This document shows, one piece after another, positions 8,905-21,249 of a DNA stretch of 21,249 nucleotides. The number at the start of each line of letters is the position of its first letter. Position 1 is the first letter of the stretch. The notes below the pieces were generated by a model. The model was not told the DNA's origin. It was given only the letters and a program-made list of their open reading frames with translations, and ran no database searches. Source of the stretch: a virus; the IMG/VR virus record IMGVR_UViG_3300044712_000487, positions 1-21,249 of that record. One strand, written 5' to 3'. Made by a program: the position numbers and the translations under genes.

Positions 8905-8923
8905 CTAATCTAATTTAGATTAG
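8905..8923 (-). repeat. Inverted repeat overlapping the gp23 stop codon
   Basis: CTAATCTAA-A-TTAGATTAG: perfect 9-base arms around one central base, covering the TAA stop (8920-8922). It precedes the terminator by 11 bases. It may be an mRNA 3'-end hairpin or a protein-binding palindrome. The short centre means a full hairpin would need to open a few pairs. Confidence 0.6.
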
Positions 8924-10332
8924 AATGGGCTGGTGCCGTCAGAGACGGTGCGGAATCCAGAAGCAGCAGGAACACTTGGAGCAAGGCTACTGTTACTGAG
9001 TCTCTTGATGAGGATGTAACGGTAGTAGTTCTCAGAACCAAAGAGGTTGTTACAGATACCATAACGGGTCATAACACCGATTCTTGGGTTGAAGGAATCT
9101 TGACCAACGGCATTAACGAACATTAATGGAACGTATGGGCAATAGACAAGACCAGCATCATTATCGCGTGGTCCCTTGTAACCAACAACTGCGTAGTCAA
9201 CGCGAGCGAACATGTCACGATAGACAGTGAAACGACCGATCTGACCAACTTTAGCAACACCAGAAACTTCGGTGGTGAGGTTGGTTGCAACACTTGAAGG
9301 AGCGAATGCTTCGAGGGCTTCAAGAGCAGCGATAACTGCTGGGGAAGCGAGAACGAAGTTACCAGCGCCTCTACGGGTAGCAACGGCGATTTCATTTGAA
9401 GCCTTGAGAAGAACAGTGTAGAGAACACGGAATTTCTCTTGTTCCCAACGACCATCAGCACTACCATTAGCAGCACCAGCAGTACCATAGTCCCAAGAAA
9501 GCACACCACCAAGCTTTGCGAGCTCAATAATGTTGTTCTTAACTTCAGCATCAATCTCAGCAGCAATCTCATAAGCGAGAAGGTCTGAGAGTTCTTGAGC
9601 AACGTCAACTTGATGCATGTTCTGCAAGTCTTGTTGAGCCTCATGGGTCCAACGAGCAGCGAGCTTACGAGTCTTAGCAACGATTTCTTGTGCTTCAACA
9701 CTTAAACCCATGTAACGGATCTGGTCAGGGTTGTCGTTACAGATGTAACTCTCACCTAACTTTTCACCTACGAAGGTGTCATAGCCTGGGCGCTTGCCAA
9801 GAGCTTGATCACCACCCTTGATATTACCGTTATCAAGACGGGTTGCCCAATCAGCAACAGCAGCCATATCAGCAGAGGTTGGGAGACTGGTTGCGGAAGT
9901 TGGTGAAGAACCAGAGAAGAGACTGTTTACGGTATTGTAACCAGCTTCATCACCAGCGGTTGCACCACCAGCGGTTGTCTGGTAACGATAACGAAGAGCA
10001 TAAGCAAGACCAACTGGGGTAAACATTGGCTGAACACCAACGAGGTCATTACTTACGAGTTCTGGGAACACACGAGCAACGAGAGGCATTGCGATAGCCT
10101 TGAAGCGTGCGATACCAGCAGTACCGTCACAATTTGCTGGGGAAGCGAGAGTACCAGCACCGCCTGGGCCTGATACGGTTGCACCACCGTAAGCTTCACT
10201 GAGCTTACCTGAGAAATAGCGATGCTCTTGTTCAAGCATTGCGGCGGTGTGAGCAGCTTTCTTGTCGCTGCGAATGTGGCCTACCATTGGTTTCCACTTG
10301 TTTAAAAGCTTTTCTGCTAATGCGTTATTCAT
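8920..10332 (-). CDS. 23: Major capsid protein gp23
   Basis: Main shell protein (HK97 fold family), 470 residues (T4 521). The N-terminus EKLLNKWKPMVG matches T4 (AELLNKWKPLLE). The prohead-protease site is visible as GKLSE|AYGG (cleavage after E46; T4 has FLTE|AEIGG). Other matches are DLVGVQPM...GLAYALRYRY, AEAKSR-like IVAKTRKLAARWTHEAQQDLQNMHQVD, GNFVLASPAVIAALE, VGYKGPRDNDAGLVYCPYVPL and GVMTRYGICNNLF near the end. It has its own late promoter and a terminator, as expected for the most abundant protein. Its base composition is richer in G and C (about 50 percent in a sampled stretch) than its neighbours, probably codon adaptation. ATG 10332 has AAGGAG upstream. Confidence 0.97.
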   Translation of the reverse strand: MNNALAEKLLNKWKPMVGHIRSDKKAAHTAAMLEQEHRYFSGKLSEAYGGATVSGPGGAGTLASPANCDGTAGIARFKAIAMPLVARVFPELVSNDLVGVQPMFTPVGLAYALRYRYQTTAGGATAGDEAGYNTVNSLFSGSSPTSATSLPTSADMAAVADWATRLDNGNIKGGDQALGKRPGYDTFVGEKLGESYICNDNPDQIRYMGLSVEAQEIVAKTRKLAARWTHEAQQDLQNMHQVDVAQELSDLLAYEIAAEIDAEVKNNIIELAKLGGVLSWDYGTAGAANGSADGRWEQEKFRVLYTVLLKASNEIAVATRRGAGNFVLASPAVIAALEALEAFAPSSVATNLTTEVSGVAKVGQIGRFTVYRDMFARVDYAVVGYKGPRDNDAGLVYCPYVPLMFVNAVGQDSFNPRIGVMTRYGICNNLFGSENYYRYILIKRLSNSSLAPSVPAASGFRTVSDGTSPF

Positions 10333-10374
10333 AAAATCTCCTTATTGTTAGATTATAATTAGCTAGGATATAAG

Positions 10375-10382
10375 TATTTATA
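10375..10382 (-). promoter_or_regulatory. T4-type late promoter for gene 23
   Basis: Exact TATAAATA on the minus strand, 42 bases before ATG 10332, in the 59-base gap after gene 22. The expected leader of about 37 bases includes AAGGAG. T4 gene 23 is likewise driven by a strong late promoter. Confidence 0.85.
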
Positions 10383-10391
10383 ATAGAAGCC

Positions 10392-11435
10392 TTATCCTTT
10401 TAAGTCTCTATTTAAGGTCTTGGCCCAAGAAGACATTTCTGGGTCCATACCAGTTGTAACATTATTGACCGATTCTTGAAGTTTTTGAATTTGCTTCTTA
10501 GCGGTTTCAGTAATGTTTTGTGAAGGTGCTGGCTTTCTTACGGATTCTTCAATCACTGTGTCTTTGATTCTCTTGAAAGTTGTATCAAGTTCGTCAATTT
10601 CACATTTCTCTAATAAGAATTTCGCCTTTTCCTTCTGTTTAGCAGTAAGCCCCTCAAGAAGCGAGGATATTCTTTCTGCTTTTTCAAGTTCTTTAACCCT
10701 AGCGGATAATCTCACATTGTCCTTTATCTTAGCGTTTAAGCTTTCGGTAAGTTTCTCTGCTTCTTGTTTTGCTTCCTTAATGGTTTCTAAACCAGTGGAA
10801 TCAAATTGCACATATCCCTTTGCGAAGGTCTTTATCATTCCTTCAACAAGTGGCTTATAAGCAGCAACTTGGACTGCGGCTTCCATAATGTTCTTTGGAA
10901 TAGCGGATTCAAAGCGAGCATCCATAAATTCGGATATGCTGTGAACAATCTTTTCCTTGAACGTATCAACTTCTCTTGCAAGAGCCGCCTCTTGCGTAAT
11001 TTTGTGCTCTTTGAGTTGTTCAATAGTAGTATTCTCAATATGAGTTTGATACTCTTTGCAATTCTCTAAAGCGATTTTCATAACATGTTCTTTAAGAGCA
11101 GTTGCTTCTTGAGCAGCTATCTCTTGTGTTTGCTCAATATATTCATTGAGACTTTCAAATAAAACTTTTTCTTTTTCGGCCATTTCGTTTGCACACTTCT
11201 GAGCGAAGTTACTTGCAACATCTCTTAAAACGGCTTCTTTCTCAACTAAAACTTTATTTTGTTCTTCAAGCCAAGATTTAAGTTTTGCTTCTTTCTCTTG
11301 AAGACTCTTTGTTGCATCTGCTACTTTAGCGGCAACCATTTGATCGATTAATGAAGAAACTTCTGATTGAACTTCTTCGGAAAGAAGTTGCTTATCAAAT
11401 CCTTCAAAGAGTTTAGCTAAAACTTTATCTTTCAT
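10392..11435 (-). CDS. 22: Prohead core scaffold protein gp22
   Basis: Main internal scaffold on which the gp23 shell assembles; in T4 it is later degraded by gp21. It has 347 residues (T4 269). It is almost entirely helical and charged, rich in Lys, Glu and Ala, with long coiled-coil stretches (about 40-180 and 220-300). The composition and layout match T4 gp22 (acidic N-terminal FEGFDKQLLSEEV; segments such as ERISSLLEGLTAKQKEKAKFL resembling T4 LTESQKEKVSALVEGI). Several [L/I]-x-E sites (LFE, LSE) could be cut by gp21. It lies between genes 21 and 23 as in T4. ATG 11435 follows AGAGGAATATAT and a late promoter. Confidence 0.92.
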   Translation of the reverse strand: MKDKVLAKLFEGFDKQLLSEEVQSEVSSLIDQMVAAKVADATKSLQEKEAKLKSWLEEQNKVLVEKEAVLRDVASNFAQKCANEMAEKEKVLFESLNEYIEQTQEIAAQEATALKEHVMKIALENCKEYQTHIENTTIEQLKEHKITQEAALAREVDTFKEKIVHSISEFMDARFESAIPKNIMEAAVQVAAYKPLVEGMIKTFAKGYVQFDSTGLETIKEAKQEAEKLTESLNAKIKDNVRLSARVKELEKAERISSLLEGLTAKQKEKAKFLLEKCEIDELDTTFKRIKDTVIEESVRKPAPSQNITETAKKQIQKLQESVNNVTTGMDPEMSSWAKTLNRDLKG

Positions 11436-11458
11436 ATATATTCCTCTTTATGTAATGT

Positions 11459-11466
11459 TATTTATA
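11459..11466 (-). promoter_or_regulatory. T4-type late promoter for gene 22
   Basis: Exact TATAAATA on the minus strand, 23 bases before ATG 11435, lying in the 50-base gap after gene 21. The leader of about 18 bases carries AGAGGA. Confidence 0.85.
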
Positions 11467-11485
11467 ATTGATGAGTTAAAAATTA

Positions 11486-12178
11486 TTAAATTTGTTCAAA
11501 AAACTTTTTCACTGAATTTAATATATATGCATCAACGTCTTTTTTCGGTAAAGAACTTAATTTATTTTCTAATAAATCATAAGCTTTTGAAATTCTATTA
11601 GTATTAATAGGAACATATGATCCACCTTGGAGAATATATTCTTTTCCTTCAAGAATACCCTCAACATAACCTTCTGGTGCTGATGGATCAGCAACAATAT
11701 CTTCGGCAATTAATTCAAATTGAGTTACAAGATTTTCACCAGTTGGTCCTCTTGATAATTCACCTAAGCCTCTTGAAGAAACTCCAAGTAAACCACCGCT
11801 TTTTATAATTGAAGAAGCGATTCTACCATATTCTGTATCTAAGAGTTTTGCTTTTCCATATACATCATTACCTTGCCAAGATAATTCAGTAATCATATGA
11901 GAAACTCTATGAAGATTAATATCAACGCCTTCTGGATGTCCCAATTCTCCATAAGAACGAAGTTTTGGACCACTCATTCTTTCTTGAACATATTTAGCAA
12001 CTGATTGTTCCATTACTTGTTTATCATAAACACGACCATTACGGTTTTTTACGAGACATTGAATAAAAATACCAGTGATATACATGTCTTTTGTACCAAG
12101 TTCCTTATTCTCAATTAAGGTAACATCTTGGATTGCATTAAAATTTGGAGCTGCGGCTTCCGTAATAAATTTAAACAT
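11486..12178 (-). CDS. 21: Prohead protease gp21
   Basis: Serine protease of the herpesvirus-assemblin-like fold that matures the prohead by cleaving after [L/I]-x-E. It has 230 residues (T4 212). Catalytic residues are visible: His81 in GELGHPEG (T4 H85 in GELNHP) and Ser134 in GVSSRGLG (T4 S140 in GVSSRGLG). Other conserved parts are YITGIFIQCLVKNRNGRVY (T4 YIEGIFLQAEVVNRNKRLY) and LSWQGNDVYGKAKLLD (T4 MWWKGNDVYGRARVIE). The N-terminus FKFITEAAAP contains I-T-E, a possible self-processing or capsid-targeting site. AAAAGGG precedes ATG 12178, with a late promoter between this gene and the core-protein gene and an inverted repeat around both. Confidence 0.97.
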   Translation of the reverse strand: MFKFITEAAAPNFNAIQDVTLIENKELGTKDMYITGIFIQCLVKNRNGRVYDKQVMEQSVAKYVQERMSGPKLRSYGELGHPEGVDINLHRVSHMITELSWQGNDVYGKAKLLDTEYGRIASSIIKSGGLLGVSSRGLGELSRGPTGENLVTQFELIAEDIVADPSAPEGYVEGILEGKEYILQGGSYVPINTNRISKAYDLLENKLSSLPKKDVDAYILNSVKKFFEQI

Positions 12179-12180
12179 TT

Positions 12181-12212
12181 GTATAACCCTTTTATATTAT
12201 TTATAGTTATAC
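12181..12212 (-). repeat. Inverted repeat enclosing the gene 21 late promoter and ribosome site
   Basis: GTATAAC (12212-12206) and GTTATAC (12187-12181) are perfect 7-base arms with 18 bases between them. The loop holds TATAAATA and most of AAAAGGG, and the second arm ends 2 bases before the gene 21 ATG. Readthrough mRNA could fold here; mRNA started at the late promoter would lack the first arm. Confidence 0.5.
12198..12205 (-). promoter_or_regulatory. T4-type late promoter for gene 21
   Basis: Exact TATAAATA on the minus strand, 19 bases before ATG 12178 and immediately past the stop of the upstream core-protein gene. Expected leader is about 14 bases and includes AAAAGGG. Confidence 0.8.
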
Positions 12213-13187
12213 ATCCCTGGATATTTTCTTTGCTTCTTTAGAAAGCACTTCTTGACAATATTTTTCTGCTCTAGCATTAATATTATCATTAAGTCTTGAA
12301 GATACCATATTTTCAAATGCTTTTTGTGCTTCTGTATAGTTATCTTCTGCAATGTGATTTAAGAAATCACTAGCATGTGATTTATATTGTTCTCTTGTTG
12401 TCATAATATTCCTTGCTTCTTCTATGTCTACTTTATCAATCAATGATTGGAATTCTTTCATAACATTACTCCAGAATAGCGTATCTTTTGGTTGATTACT
12501 TGAAGAATTTTTTTGTACAGCTAATTCCCAAAACTGTCTTAATTGCGCTTTAGGTAAGCCAGTTTTACTAGCCATAGTTGTAAATAATGTTGAACTCTCA
12601 TTGAGTTGTTCAGCAAATTCATCCTTATCTAAACCTTGTGCAGCCAACCAATCTTTTGCTGATTGATATTCATCGTTTGAATTTGATGATTTTTTTGCTG
12701 ATTTCTTAATAGATAACCAATCATCTCTGGTATCTGTTGGTTCTGGTTTAATTGTAGGAGGAGAAATTGTTTCTGGTTCTTTAGGTTTTAAAGTTGAAAT
12801 TGATGGAGTTGGTGGGGCAACTTTAGGAACTGGAAGAGACGTTCCAGTTGATTGAAGTTTTTCAATTTCTGGAGAAATTATATTAACAATACAATCTCTA
12901 AAAGCAGCCTTTGCTTCTGGTGCTAATCTGGATTGAGCGATAAAACCTAAAATTTCTTTTGCTCTTCCTTCAAGTCTTTCTTTACTATCATAATTCATTT
13001 TATAATTTTTTAAAGAAGGATCGTTGTTATCTTTAGTAAAAATATTTTTTACTAAATTATCAACACCAGTAGATGATTGACCGAAACGTTGATAGTCATT
13101 GATTAGTTTTAATGCTAATTCAATTTTCTTTTTTCTTGCTTCGTTTCTTTGTTTAACTTGTGCTTTAATTAATGCCATTTTATCCAT
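12207..13187 (-). CDS. Probable prohead core protein (position of T4 gp67/gp68)
   Basis: The protein has 326 residues and lies between portal gp20 and protease gp21, where T4 has the small core proteins gp67 and gp68. Three parts are visible: a basic helical N-terminus (1-115, KQRNEARKKKIELALKLIND), a Pro/Thr-rich linker (118-155, PVPKVAPPTPS) and a helical C-terminus (160-326). The last 50 residues (FLNHIAEDNYTEAQKAFEN, then SSRLNDNINARAEKY) recall a motif I associate with the C-terminus of core proteins in many T4-like phages (helix, D-Y/L-x-x-A-x-x-x-F, K/R-L/V-N-D). An L-N-E at 195-197 fits the gp21 cleavage consensus. ATG 13187 follows AAGGAATAAACT. The call is by position and motif memory, not by full alignment. 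Confidence 0.6.
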   Translation of the reverse strand: MDKMALIKAQVKQRNEARKKKIELALKLINDYQRFGQSSTGVDNLVKNIFTKDNNDPSLKNYKMNYDSKERLEGRAKEILGFIAQSRLAPEAKAAFRDCIVNIISPEIEKLQSTGTSLPVPKVAPPTPSISTLKPKEPETISPPTIKPEPTDTRDDWLSIKKSAKKSSNSNDEYQSAKDWLAAQGLDKDEFAEQLNESSTLFTTMASKTGLPKAQLRQFWELAVQKNSSSNQPKDTLFWSNVMKEFQSLIDKVDIEEARNIMTTREQYKSHASDFLNHIAEDNYTEAQKAFENMVSSRLNDNINARAEKYCQEVLSKEAKKISRDV

Positions 13188-13197
13188 AGTTTATTCC

Positions 13198-14814
13198 TTA
13201 TAGAACCGAATCTGCTCCACCCTTATCCCCACCTTCTTCTCCACTATCACCTTCTTCGTCATCCTTTAAGAGTTTCTTTGCTTGTCTTTCAGCAATTCTC
13301 TTTTCAACATGTTCATCCCACTTATCATCATCCATTTCAAGATAATCTTTAACAATTAGCTCTGTAGAGAATATTGGATCTTCGGTATCAATTAAATCAG
13401 CAAACTTACTGAAGTTCTCAAACTTCAATTCAAGTATCTTGGCTTCAAAGAATTTATCAAAGAGGTTATTACTGAACATTTGAAGAGATATATCTTTCTC
13501 TTCTAACCCAAATTCTTCCCAAATACCTTTAAGTTTCAAATGTGTAATAAAGGTTTGTTTATAAATCTTGACAAATCTCTTGGAGAATCTCTTAACTTCT
13601 TTAACAAATTTAACTTCTTCACGAGTAATGTCTTGGGTATCACCAATTGAGAATTTACCTTCTTCACCACCCCAACGACTCTTAGGAATCTTTAAGCCTC
13701 TATATAGTTTATTGAGGAAGTAATCAACGTCAGCAATTTCACCAAGACCTTGACCACCAGGAAGAGAAGTAACTTCTGAACTACGACCACCTTGGAAAAC
13801 AGGGAACCAGAAGTCTTCAGTCATAGCCATAGCATCAAGACCTTCTGACACATCACCAGTCTTTGGATCAAAGAACTTACGTTGACGATATTTAGTCATT
13901 AACTCTTGAACGAAATGTTCTGCCTTTCCTTTAGGCATATTACCAACGTCAATCTTAAATATTCTTCTTTCTGGCGCACGAACAAGACGATATATAACAA
14001 GAGCATCTTCCATTAACTTTAAACGACGATAAGTTGTTTTGGCTTGCTCAAGGAAACTAAGAATTAATTTATCTTGTTCGGTTGAATCGTAATTAGCAAT
14101 ACCAGAAGCAGCATATGAAATTGCATTCTTAGGTAATGAAATAACTTCTTTATCTGTTCTGTATGCGTAGAAAGAAATATCTTCTGCTTCAAGATCATCC
14201 CAAATTGGATGAATTCTCGTAGTCATTAACTTTTTAACTTTAGTAATACCTTTTTCTGGCTTATCATTATCAAAACAATTCTCTAAAGCAATCTCACCGT
14301 CAATCATGAATTCTCTAAACCATGTATCAACAGTTTCATCTGCTTTTATAATCTCATACATTAAATGATCAAACTCAGCATTAATAGTTTTTCGAGCATG
14401 TTCATTTTCTTTTATTGAATTGTTTGTTATTTCTATCTTACAAAAGTTAGTTCCAGATTTATCAAAGTTAATTGCTTCATCTACATATTCATCAATAGCA
14501 AACCCAATTTCTGGGAATTTAGCCATTTCACGATAAATTTCAAGTCTCTGTTGTTTTGATGCTTCACTCTGGTAAATATATTTTGAATATATATTCATCA
14601 TTCCACTGAAATCACCAATACCAGCAAAATCTTGTAAATCAGAAATACCAACTTTTTCGGTCTTACCTTGTGTTTCAGTATCTTTGCCCTCTAAAGCATT
14701 ATAGATAGTCTGACGAACTTTGAAAAGTCTTTCCTTCTCACCTGGAGATAAAGCATCTTCTCTTTTTCTCTTACCGAAGTTCTTACCAAAATTAAAATAG
14801 TCTCTTAAAGCCAT
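13198..14814 (-). CDS. 20: Portal vertex protein gp20
   Basis: Forms the twelve-subunit portal ring that initiates prohead assembly and is the DNA channel for gp17. It has 538 residues (T4 524). Strong matches: YREMAKFPEIGFAIDEYVDEAI (T4 [22 protein letters not shown]), LKLMEDALVIYRLVRAPERR (T4 [20 protein letters not shown]), KIDVGNMPKGKAEHFVQELM (T4 [20 protein letters not shown]), AMTEDFWFPV and EVTSLPGGQGLGEIADVDYF (T4 [20 protein letters not shown]), and the FSIGDTQDITREEVKF region. The C-terminus is acidic and Gly-rich (DDEEGDSGEEGGDKGGAD). ATG 14814 has AAAAAAGGATATAT upstream. No late promoter was seen directly before it, so it may be read from the promoter at 15505-15512. Confidence 0.96.
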   Translation of the reverse strand: MALRDYFNFGKNFGKRKREDALSPGEKERLFKVRQTIYNALEGKDTETQGKTEKVGISDLQDFAGIGDFSGMMNIYSKYIYQSEASKQQRLEIYREMAKFPEIGFAIDEYVDEAINFDKSGTNFCKIEITNNSIKENEHARKTINAEFDHLMYEIIKADETVDTWFREFMIDGEIALENCFDNDKPEKGITKVKKLMTTRIHPIWDDLEAEDISFYAYRTDKEVISLPKNAISYAASGIANYDSTEQDKLILSFLEQAKTTYRRLKLMEDALVIYRLVRAPERRIFKIDVGNMPKGKAEHFVQELMTKYRQRKFFDPKTGDVSEGLDAMAMTEDFWFPVFQGGRSSEVTSLPGGQGLGEIADVDYFLNKLYRGLKIPKSRWGGEEGKFSIGDTQDITREEVKFVKEVKRFSKRFVKIYKQTFITHLKLKGIWEEFGLEEKDISLQMFSNNLFDKFFEAKILELKFENFSKFADLIDTEDPIFSTELIVKDYLEMDDDKWDEHVEKRIAERQAKKLLKDDEEGDSGEEGGDKGGADSVL

Positions 14815-16985: not shown

Positions 16986-17420
16986 TTACTTATTAAGACC
17001 TTTATTTCCTTGATTCAATTCAGAATCAAGTGGAAGACCTAAAGCACTACGAACTTTAGCACGGAACTCACCGAGGAATTCTTTTGGAGCATCGGTAGAA
17101 CCTTCTTTGCGATCAACAGGCTTTGCACCTTCAACTGCACTCTTGTTACCAATGTTCTTATCACCTTCACCAGTTTCCTTGACGCCAGCACTAGCACCAG
17201 CCTCACGATTAACTGATTTGGTATTACCCATATCACCGTTCTTTGGTTCAAATGCTTTTGGAGCATCTTTGACACCATCACCAGCGGTAACTGGTTTAAC
17301 AGTTGCACCAAGAGATGGCTTACTTGTGCCACCATCTTCGTCAGGACCGACTTTCTTCTCACTGTTGGAAGCGCCCTTCATCTCTGACTCTTTGACTAAA
17401 TCTTTTAATGTTCTGCCCAT
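16986..17420 (-). CDS. Low-complexity disordered protein A (paralogue of neighbour)
   Basis: The protein has 144 residues and no recognisable family. It is rich in Gly, Lys, Ala, Glu and Asp with almost no aromatic residues, so it is probably disordered. A short repeat, DAPKxF, occurs at about residues 71-76 (DAPKAF) and 112-117 (DAPKEF). The C-terminus (RAKVRSALGLPLDSELNQGNKG) is nearly identical to that of the 125-residue gene just upstream, so the pair arose by tandem duplication. It starts at ATG 17420 with AAGGAGA upstream and is followed by a strong terminator, closing the operon that begins at 17812. Such proteins may be packaged internal proteins or structural linkers, but no function can be read from the sequence. 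Confidence 0.7.
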   Translation of the reverse strand: MGRTLKDLVKESEMKGASNSEKKVGPDEDGGTSKPSLGATVKPVTAGDGVKDAPKAFEPKNGDMGNTKSVNREAGASAGVKETGEGDKNIGNKSAVEGAKPVDRKEGSTDAPKEFLGEFRAKVRSALGLPLDSELNQGNKGLNK

Positions 17421-17434
17421 ATAATTCTCCTTAA

Positions 17435-17812
17435 TTATTTTTCAATGCCTTTGTTACCTTGATTTAATTCAGAGTCAAGTGGAATGCCCAATGCCCCACG
17501 GAGTCTCTTCTTATAATCTTCAAGGGATTCGAATGCTTTAGGAGCATTCTTTGCCCCTGGTTCGTTCTTATCGTTTGCTGCTTTGCCAACAGTTTCTTTA
17601 TTACCATCAAATTTCTCTGGAGCCTTAGAAGCACCAGCATCTCTTTTATTTTCTGCTGGGGTGTCAATTTTCTTATCTTCAGCTTTGAATTCCTTTGGAG
17701 CATCTTGTACTCCTGGCTCTGTTTTTGTTTCTGGCTTTTTGGTGCCATAATCAGCGCCTTCGGATTCTTCAATCTTTTTATAGGCTTCCATTAATTGTCT
17801 ATCATTGAGCAT
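17435..17812 (-). CDS. Low-complexity disordered protein B (paralogue of neighbour)
   Basis: The protein has 125 residues. The N-terminus is helical (MLNDRQLMEAYKKIEES), and the middle is a Lys/Glu/Asp/Ala-rich disordered part with three copies of an A-P-K/E-x-F unit roughly 30 residues apart (DAPKEF, KAPEKF, NAPKAF). The C-terminal tail, KRLRGALGIPLDSELNQGNKG, is shared with its downstream paralogue. It is not a known family. ATG 17812 has GGAG upstream and a late promoter 25 bases upstream, so it is expected to be made late with virion proteins. The gap to the next gene is 14 bases. An alternative view is that both are decoration or internal head proteins; this is inferred only from timing and composition. 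Confidence 0.7.
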   Translation of the reverse strand: MLNDRQLMEAYKKIEESEGADYGTKKPETKTEPGVQDAPKEFKAEDKKIDTPAENKRDAGASKAPEKFDGNKETVGKAANDKNEPGAKNAPKAFESLEDYKKRLRGALGIPLDSELNQGNKGIEK

Positions 17813-18573: not shown

Positions 18574-20157
18574 TTATAGGTCTTTTAACTCTTGTTCCAT
18601 TTGTGCCCAAGCATTTTTTAATTGTGAATCTTGAGCGATATCACCTTGTTGGGTGTAATCAATACTTGGAACATCTTCAACTTCTGAACCACCTTCTGAT
18701 GGGGCTTGAATAGCCATTAAAGAATCACTATAACCATATGAACTATCAATATCATTTGGGCTACCATCCGAAAGAATAGCGTCTGAAAGAATCTGTGAAA
18801 GTTCGGTTGAAGAATTACCAAATCTATCAAGTAAAGCATTTAAAGCATAATCTCTACTTGTTTTATTAAGATCATTATCTTTGATAAAACTATAGATAGT
18901 TGATCTATCAGCAACTTGTTGTTTAGGATTTGGTGTTGAAACAGAACCCATCAAACCACCAGCGATAGAACCAATTGGCATAATACCAAAACTACCACCA
19001 ATATCTGGTGAATCACCACCCATAGAGCAAACACCACCAGCACAACCCTCATCAAGTCTATTAAGAGTCTTTTCCATTTCAGACCATGAAAGTTGAGATT
19101 CTTTAAGACCGCTTTCTTCTCTTGCAGCCATTTTATCAATTAATGTGCCTTCAGTTGGGTCTATGTTGTTCATTGCAACATCACATGCTTCGTCCGCTAA
19201 TTTTTGAAGTTCCTTAGTAATTTCTTCAAGGTCTTTCTTTTTCTTTTTAGCATTCTTTTCGGCTTCATCTTCAACAGTATCATCTTTTGCATCTGGCTTT
19301 GGACTAACTGCTTGATTTTTTAAAGTAGGGTCTTGAGTAAAAGGAATCTTTTTTGGTTTTCCGTCAGCACCAGCATAAACACCTTCAGCCATTTGTTTTG
19401 CGGCCTTGGCTTGGTTGTTAGCATCAATTGTTTGTGCTTGGGCAAGTTTCTGTTTTGATTTCGCTAAATCAGCGTTCTTTAAAGCAACTTGAGTTTGTTT
19501 TATTTTAGTATCTTTTGATGGTTCACCAATTGGTGAAGCAGCCAAGTCCTCTTTTATTTTCTTTGATTCATAAAAGTTTTTGAATGACATATTATTTTCC
19601 TTTTTAACTTCTTGACCTTGTGTTGCTTTTTTCCATTCTTCTTGAAAAAGTTTTTCATTCATAAGAACAACATTTTTAACCTTTTCTACGAGTAACTTTA
19701 AAATTTCTACTTTTAAATCCTCAATAGGTTTGTTAACTGGATCTTTTGGATCTTTGTCTTTATCTGATGAAATTTGTAAAATTTGTTGAAAAATTATATT
19801 TTTAATAACTTCATCGCCTTTTACATTAAGAACTTTTGTATTTAAGAAATATGACCACCTAAAATGCTTAAAAAGGCTATCATCATCGCTTCTATTTGAA
19901 AGATCATTGTAGATATCTTGTAAACTTTTACCATTATTGTTTTTAATAAAAGCATTTAATTCGGCTTCGTGTTTATCAAAATCTTTAATCTTCTTTTTTA
20001 TCTGTTCAAAATTCTTAATTTTATTTTTAAGATTATTTGAAAATAAAGAATTAACGAATTGTTCCCAAGGACCAGATCCTTTAAGGATATCATTTTTAAT
20101 AGCACCACCTACACTTGATGCTAAATCCCCTAAACCTTCGTTAAACCCCTTCGGCAT
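18574..20157 (-). CDS. Large coiled-coil/low-complexity protein, possible virion protein or gene fusion
   Basis: Chosen start is ATG 20157 (MPKGFNEGLGDLA), with AAGGA 8 bases upstream and 1 base after the previous stop; an in-frame start at 20256 would lie inside the upstream gene and lacks support. It has 527 residues and the family is unknown. Residues 1-180 are lysine-rich and helical. At Met190 a second possible N-terminus begins (MSFKNFYESKKIKEDL), preceded by AAGGAAAATAAT. Residues 205-340 are Lys/Ala/Asp-rich and low complexity. Residues 375-527 include a Gly/Cys patch (CAGGVCSMGG), an acidic tail and terminal QELKDL, close to the EELKDL end of the upstream protein. L-x-E sites include RLDE|G near residue 370. 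A virion or internal head role is guessed from context. Confidence 0.65.
   Translation of the reverse strand: MPKGFNEGLGDLASSVGGAIKNDILKGSGPWEQFVNSLFSNNLKNKIKNFEQIKKKIKDFDKHEAELNAFIKNNNGKSLQDIYNDLSNRSDDDSLFKHFRWSYFLNTKVLNVKGDEVIKNIIFQQILQISSDKDKDPKDPVNKPIEDLKVEILKLLVEKVKNVVLMNEKLFQEEWKKATQGQEVKKENNMSFKNFYESKKIKEDLAASPIGEPSKDTKIKQTQVALKNADLAKSKQKLAQAQTIDANNQAKAAKQMAEGVYAGADGKPKKIPFTQDPTLKNQAVSPKPDAKDDTVEDEAEKNAKKKKKDLEEITKELQKLADEACDVAMNNIDPTEGTLIDKMAAREESGLKESQLSWSEMEKTLNRLDEGCAGGVCSMGGDSPDIGGSFGIMPIGSIAGGLMGSVSTPNPKQQVADRSTIYSFIKDNDLNKTSRDYALNALLDRFGNSSTELSQILSDAILSDGSPNDIDSSYGYSDSLMAIQAPSEGGSEVEDVPSIDYTQQGDIAQDSQLKNAWAQMEQELKDL
19588..19600 (-). promoter_or_regulatory. Internal ribosome binding site and possible second start
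   Basis: Minus strand AAGGAAAATAATATG: a good Shine-Dalgarno 7 bases before an in-frame ATG (19590) in the middle of the 527-residue gene. It would produce a protein of 338 residues beginning MSFKNFYESK, which resembles the capsid-targeting N-termini of T4 internal proteins (MKTYQEFIAEA). Confidence 0.45.
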
Positions 20158-20158
20158 C

Positions 20159-21249
20159 TTATAAGTCCTTAAGTTCCTCGTTATCCAATACTTTTTGAGC
20201 TGATTTGGAAAGAATATCAAGAGCTTCGGTAAGTTGTTCTTCACTAACTTCTTCACCCATACCTAAACCAGCACCAATATTTTCCATTGATTCTAGTTTG
20301 GCTTTGGTTCTTCTAGCGACTTCATAAACTTGCTCTTCGCTCATAGAACCTATATTTTCACAAATACCATTGGCTGCTTCAAGATTCATTAACGCTTCTG
20401 CAAAATCTGCTTCTTCTGAAATTTGACCAGAACTATAACATTCCGCCATGGCGTTTGCTAAAGCCTCAAGCATATCGTCGTCAAAATGGGTATCTTCACC
20501 ACCTAAATCTGGTGGAAGAGGACCAGCACCTAATTCAGCGACATCAGCATCTCTAGTAGCTTGAAGAGCGGCTTCATCATCAGCAGAAGGAGGTTCGGTT
20601 CCTTCTGGTCCAACTAAAGCTGGATCAATACCTAATGTTGATTCTTCAACATCATCAACATCATTAACTTCTACCCCTGGTAAATTATCACTAACTCCAC
20701 CAACTAATCCACCACCCTCACGAGGAATTCCATCAATTGGATTTGTTGGATCAACAGGTGGAGCAACTTCATCAACGGTGTTTCCAGAAATTTTATTCTT
20801 TAATTGATCAATTTTTGTTTTAATGTATGGGAACTCTAAACTTGCTTTTTCAAGTGAAGGAAGTAATTCTTTTTCAAAGAAATTACCAGTACTACCACCG
20901 AAATAAGGCTTCTTCATATTATCAAAAACTTTTGGATCAGCAGTTAAAGCCTCATCAACAACAGTCTCAAGTGCGGTTTGAATGTCAATCATATCACCAC
21001 CAAGACCAGCGGAACCACCTAAGAAAACTTCATTGTCTCCATGTTTTACTGCACTTAAAACATCTTTTAATCTTTGTTTTATTGCTTCACTTGATTTGGC
21101 TTCGTCTAAATTACTTGATTCATCAACAGCACCAGCCACAACTGATTTTCTTATATTTCCACCCGCTGGTTTTACACTAACAACTGGAAGATTTGTGTTA
21201 TAAGTACTTTCATAGAAAGCCCTTGATTCATTAAAACGAATTAATCTAG
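20159..21249 (-). CDS. Acidic protein, 5' part beyond the right edge
   Basis: The frame stays open through the right edge, so the start lies outside the window; the in-frame GTG at 21139 is internal. At least 362 residues are visible. The first visible part contains RFNESRAFYESTYNTN, similar to MSFKNFYESKK in the next gene, so this is probably near the true N-terminus. It is strongly acidic, with Gly/Pro-rich linkers in the middle (PPVDPTNPIDGIPREGGG; DPALVGPEGTEPPSADDEAA) and a helical C-terminal domain (DDDMLEALANAMAEC ... LTEALDILSKSAQKVLDNEELKDL). I know no family for it. The downstream gene begins 1 base after its stop, so the pair is co-translated, and both end in ELKDL. Confidence 0.65.
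   Translation of the reverse strand, partial: RLIRFNESRAFYESTYNTNLPVVSVKPAGGNIRKSVVAGAVDESSNLDEAKSSEAIKQRLKDVLSAVKHGDNEVFLGGSAGLGGDMIDIQTALETVVDEALTADPKVFDNMKKPYFGGSTGNFFEKELLPSLEKASLEFPYIKTKIDQLKNKISGNTVDEVAPPVDPTNPIDGIPREGGGLVGGVSDNLPGVEVNDVDDVEESTLGIDPALVGPEGTEPPSADDEAALQATRDADVAELGAGPLPPDLGGEDTHFDDDMLEALANAMAECYSSGQISEEADFAEALMNLEAANGICENIGSMSEEQVYEVARRTKAKLESMENIGAGLGMGEEVSEEQLTEALDILSKSAQKVLDNEELKDL

Follow-up and report, generated by a model that had tools for sequence, protein, structure and literature searches.

Why should a long reading frame beside a phage head module carry in its middle a start codon, a ribosome-binding sequence and a peptide resembling those that open the internal proteins (IPs) of T4? 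The window, by which we mean the whole stretch of DNA that was analysed, is a complete 21,249-base metagenomic IMG/VR entry, and its minus strand bears a T4-like head module. Matches to PHROG 213, 207, 237 and 138 were obtained for the portal, protease, scaffold and major capsid protein, respectively. The long frame, which we call P1, is the first complete gene of the minus-strand run, and it is followed by a gene for a Holliday-junction-resolvase-like protein and then by genes for two short Lys/Ala/Glu-rich proteins. The setting of P1 is as follows.

8920 to 14814, minus strand: T4-like head module (portal, small core-like ORF, prohead protease, scaffold gp22, major capsid protein), from PHROG matches
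18574 to 20157, minus strand: P1, the full-length ORF of 527 aa from the ORF reading, with first start MPKGFNEGLGD and stop codon 18574-18576
20166 to 20170, minus strand: Shine-Dalgarno sequence (SD) AAGGA of the first start of P1, within the Lys-Asp codons of the C-terminal LKDL of the upstream gene
20159 to 21247, minus strand: upstream acidic gene, its 5' end cut by the record; homologues start with a zinc ribbon

We suggest that P1 is probably an in-frame nested gene, with a full-length form and a short form that carries a T4-IP-like, capsid-targeting-like propeptide. The observations behind this reading are a conserved Met, the tag, an SD and a domain boundary. We infer that both products are made from the same message: ribosomes would start at 20157 to give a 527-residue protein and also at 19590 to give a 338-residue protein opening with the propeptide. 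The short form would then enter the prohead core and, after trimming by a phage gp21-type protease behind an xxE (KIKE/D, with the cut at the slash), would stay in the head; it may have a role there or in the infected cell. A homologue of this protease is encoded near P1. The features of the internal start are listed here.

19588 to 19590, minus strand: internal in-frame ATG, codon 190 of 527; Met in 6/6 lineages
19598 to 19602, minus strand: SD AAGGA of the internal start, spacer 7; SD word in 6/6 lineages
19549 to 19590, minus strand: putative capsid-targeting propeptide MSFKNFYESKKIKE, with a protease-like IxE end, compared with T4 ipI, ipII and ipIII
18577 to 19590, minus strand: predicted short product, 338 aa, with a conserved IPFTQDP stretch, a C-terminal helical domain and an LKDL end
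19591 to 20157, minus strand: N-terminal half, residues 1-189, a helical domain, poorly conserved and under purifying selection

Relatives of P1 could be reached only through its neighbours. A tblastn search with the P1 sequence gave no hit at E ≤ 0.01 among 50,697 phage records, one direct scan of viral contigs gave none either, and a profile built on the short form had no hits in genome contigs. There was no convincing PHROG or Pfam match, which bears on any kinship to T4 IPI-III beyond the tag, and a fold search with an AlphaFold2 model of P1 gave no match at E ≤ 0.001. Scans with the neighbouring head genes yielded 31 loci for the capsid protein and 27 for the portal, and P1 relatives were found by tblastn inside these loci; a profile scan added L058 and L061. 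A Holliday-junction-resolvase scan for further close relatives gave two loci only, both on already known contigs. The resulting six lineages are the window, L047, L033/L004, L058, L006/L062 and L005/L007/L061; they are related, hence not fully independent.

The first-pass annotation described an in-frame ATG at 19590, with AAGGA, opening MSFKNFYESK, and this is present in the sequence; the peptide opened there is MSFKNFYESKKIKEDLAAS. At the same site the relatives have Met in 6/6 lineages, FKxF in 6/6, and an SD word 6-7 bases upstream in 6/6, as expected of an in-frame nested gene. The aligned peptides are MSFKNFYES in the window, MSFKQFHEA in L047, MSFKNFFES in L033, MTFKHFFES in L058, MTFKSFFES in L006 and MKSFKEFMG in L005, and the SD words in the same order are AAGGA, GGAG, AAGGA, AAGGA, GAGGA and GGAG. 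These words come from different codons among the lineages, and the residues ahead of the Met differ (VKKENN, PKTENI, QIKESH, PTKESN, IPEERN and FTESD). The conserved Met and SD argue that the tag lies at the N terminus of a predicted product.

Could ordinary protein conservation, or chance, account for this site? MSFKxF would then open a helix of the full-length protein, with the SD arising as a by-product of Glu conservation. All six lineages do keep a Glu at −3 or −4. The SD, however, also requires a G-ending codon before the Glu codon; this third-position G is present in 6/6 lineages, where such codons make up 4.5-36% of their families, and the product of the expected frequencies is about 3.5e-4 (post hoc, with independence assumed). 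Internal ATGs with an SD word at a spacing of 4-10 number 6/127, 5/34, 12/122, 2/100 and 12/123 in five sources, a per-source rate of 2-15% in counts that include the P1 site itself.

As a control we took 81 internal Mets conserved in at least three lineages, over 20 window genes. The P1 site has an SD in 5/5 aligned lineages, L005 not being aligned there by tblastn. Three other Mets have an SD in at least two lineages: portal M329 (5/5), capsid-protein M82 (4/5) and terminase M286 (2/3). Thus, SD conservation by itself is not unique to the P1 site. The equal conservation at portal M329, which illustrates that protein conservation can yield SD conservation, counts against the nested reading. 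However, portal M329 and capsid-protein M82 lie within strongly conserved proteins; ahead of the P1 site, most lineages are only 13-30% identical to one another. Given this poorly conserved flank, the third-position G and the match of the P1 tag to T4 IP starts, we regard chance or ordinary conservation as improbable.

Two further measurements at the internal start were mixed. The predicted mRNA structure is among the least structured fifth in five of six lineages; L058 is average, which counts against a nested start, as does the lack of a dip in synonymous changes there in L033/L058, the sole usable pair. An internal promoter for the short form was also considered and set aside, since there is no exact late-promoter octamer TATAAATA inside P1 or just upstream of the internal start. 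Initiation at the internal ATG would therefore need the long message. Exact TATAAATA octamers, which we take to resemble T4 late promoters, do occur just before several head and tail genes of the window (10375, 11459, 12198, 15505, 17838, 8182 and 4250, all minus strand).

The likeness of the tag to the T4 internal-protein sequence MKTYQEFIAEA, proposed on first reading, holds against the T4 record itself. There, ipII and ipIII both start with MKTYQEFIAEA and ipI starts with MKTFKEFTSTTTPVSTITE / MKTFKEFTSTTTPVSTITEA, in the pattern MKTFKEF...ITE. The part of PMC3012670 that covers IPI gives the mature protein 76 residues; with a 95-residue ipI gene, this places the cut after ITE-19. The P1 and T4 tags have in common a Met, a few residues, an aromatic-x-x-F and then an xxE end ahead of A, G or D. 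In P1 the xxE after the internal tag reads IKE/D, LKE/G, VKE/G, IKE/G and IKE/E. It is present in five of the six lineages and absent from L005, which counts against the nested reading. With FKxF in every lineage, the putative peptide matches the short internal-protein type (M..[FY]..F with an xxE end), and packaging of the predicted short form is plausible.

Sites of the same kind are seen in two head proteins of this clade. At the expected cut of the capsid protein, LxE stands in 27 of 32 rows (by eye), INE in one and FAE in one; three of the 32 rows are without that N terminus. The clade protease begins FITE/A or similar. In L005, L007 and L061 a tag is also present at the first start of P1, MNFKDYCIKE/G, so that both starts are tagged (L005:353-382).

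How specific is such a short tag? Among 2129 internal Mets in 23 loci, eight fit the pattern M-x(0-3)-[FY][KRQE]x[FY], and the P1 site accounts for five of those eight. In T4, the strict pattern M.{0,2}[FY][KQ].F matches five annotated gene starts (ipI, ipII, ipIII, 61.1 and 57B), one Met inside alt and one unannotated frame. To our knowledge 57B is not an internal protein, and the shortness of the tag and its fit to 57B count against the nested reading. T4 gene 61.1 (NC_000866.4 19130, minus strand) encodes a protein annotated as hypothetical, and its start, MKTFKEFIKED, comes close to the IPI tag.

The gene two places upstream of P1, with the motif VLF.G[DE][YF].PI, opens in seven lineages with the M..FK.F tag as well. 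From this motif the gene appears to be nucleotidyltransferase-like; Pfam and PHROG gave no match backing that name. It is found at these positions.

L058:3105-3959, tagged nucleotidyltransferase-like gene
L059:3135-3980, the same
L062:2980-3816, the same
L042:1701-2594, the same
L044:1932-2807, the same
L088:3013-3906, the same
L093:1815-2651, the same

The N-terminal position of the tag in these seven lineages argues independently for its use as an N-terminal element here, and it suggests that the nucleotidyltransferase-like protein may be an enzyme carried in the head.

The main rival to the nested reading is that only the full-length protein is made, and that the tag in mid-ORF binds the core and is cut by the prohead protease, separating an N-terminal propeptide domain from a mature C-terminal protein. 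The xxE sites after the tag in 5/6 lineages would suit this role. Long propeptides, of 111-254 residues, are known from head proteins of the giant phage SPN3US, according to the passages of PMC10052503 on that phage. Furthermore, fused outgroups have xxE/A- or xxE/S-like sites some 50-60 residues before IPFT (TFAE/A, ILDE/A, TLGE/S and SINE/S, by eye). A full-length product alone, however, leaves unexplained the conserved Met and the SD rebuilt from different codons in 6/6 lineages, and we consider it rather unlikely. Such a protease hinge may hold together with a nested product. One peptide would then have two uses, as the targeting propeptide of the short form and as an internal, core-binding, protease-cut hinge in the full-length form. 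The hinge would free the helical N-terminal domain inside the prohead, and one gene would set the ratio of two packaged proteins. We put this dual use forward tentatively, as a doubtful but real possibility.

The domain boundary on which the nested reading also draws is seen in both conservation and structure. Identity between lineages is 13-30% before the internal Met and 28-60% after it; the exceptions to this step are L033/L058 (58% before, 73% after) and L005/L061, which are near-identical. For L033 vs L058, pN is 0.26 and pS 0.75 in the N-terminal half, and 0.18 and 0.59 in the C-terminal half. Since pN is below pS in both, both halves appear to be translated and selected. The AlphaFold2 model, of low overall confidence (mean pLDDT 56, six rows), shows a helical domain as far as about residue 180 and then a low-confidence linker, 182-260, containing the internal ATG. 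Together with the Met, tag and SD in six lineages, this boundary supports the earlier idea of two nested products.

Is P1 instead a fusion of two ancestral genes, as was also proposed on first reading? In the outgroups L041, L042, L088 and L093 the C-terminal part is fused to the upstream zinc-ribbon gene: it closes a long gene that opens with a zinc ribbon and is without the N-terminal domain. L014/L069 have the same long form, with the start not in view. L024 has the C-terminal part as a gene of its own, a 319-codon frame with AAGGA ahead of its first Met (METELKEGEYL). The C-terminal part thus appears to be an independent module. The proposal is thus supported in an altered form: the C-terminal half occurs without the N-terminal half, but no gene boundary or unfused copy starting exactly at the internal ATG was found in any relative. 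The presence in outgroups of the C-terminal part alone would also fit a recent fusion, in which a tagged separate gene became attached to a domain upstream of it, leaving the Met and SD as unused relics. The missing unfused copy speaks against this. Furthermore, the lineages are only 28-60% identical even in the conserved half (L033/L058 73%), with synonymous sites near saturation, and over such divergence a Met, tag and SD that serve no purpose would have eroded. We find a recent fusion with relic signals improbable.

The first reading also pointed to NESRAFYES near the visible start of the upstream gene. As a second targeting peptide it is not supported. Aligned by eye, it pairs with RFQEANAFYEK of L033 and RLQEAKAFYEK of L058, which lie about 150 residues into these homologues and past their zinc-ribbon N terminus; it looks N-terminal because the record ends there.

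What precedents are there for the nested gene that we favour? The T4 record has second in-frame entries for genes 17, 21, 26 and 49. Genes 21 and 17 are like P1 in being head or packaging genes with a second product that shares frame and stop, but no targeting tag is annotated on their internal products, and the note for gene 17 mentions internal transcription, whereas P1 shows no promoter octamer. Lambda Nu3 is a further nested head-gene precedent. The two-polypeptide phage endolysins likewise have an in-frame internal start and two ORFs with a common stop, but they are lysis enzymes and P1 is a head-module gene (PMC9430671). SPN3US gp53, gp54 and gp81 resemble P1 in the long N-terminal part before the xxE cut; the passages of PMC10052503 on these proteins report no internal start, and the gp245 motif there is AxE. 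The P1 phage shares with T4 the portal, protease, scaffold and capsid protein. Unlike the tags of the T4 IPs, that of P1 lies mid-ORF, before a predicted 338-residue product that has no known relative.

Nested in-frame starts (T4, endolysins) and targeting tags (T4) are already known, each alone. The new part is the two together in mid-ORF, and a limited literature search found no report of internal translation initiation with a prohead or capsid targeting sequence. If the nested reading is true, the phage can use a single gene to tune two forms of a head protein. The rule M..FKxF...xxE, also applied mid-ORF behind an SD, could be used to check longest-ORF gene callers for missed head proteins, and it yields a predicted set of packaged proteins beyond the well-studied T4 relatives.

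The ends of the genes here are also of some interest. The first start of P1 has an equivalent place in the homologues of L033, L006, L005 and L058. P1 and its upstream neighbour both terminate in LKDL or LRDL (18577-18588 and 20162-20173, minus strand). Such ends occur in 11 of 1053 stop-bounded frames from 18 loci, every one P1 or the gene before it. The Lys-Asp codons of LKDL also serve as the SD of P1 in the upstream gene, but they have no SD role in P1 itself, and so the tail of P1 may have a role at the protein level. Finally, the two adjacent short Lys/Ala/Glu-rich proteins (16986-17812, minus strand) are paralogues with xxE-dense N termini, and are possible core proteins.
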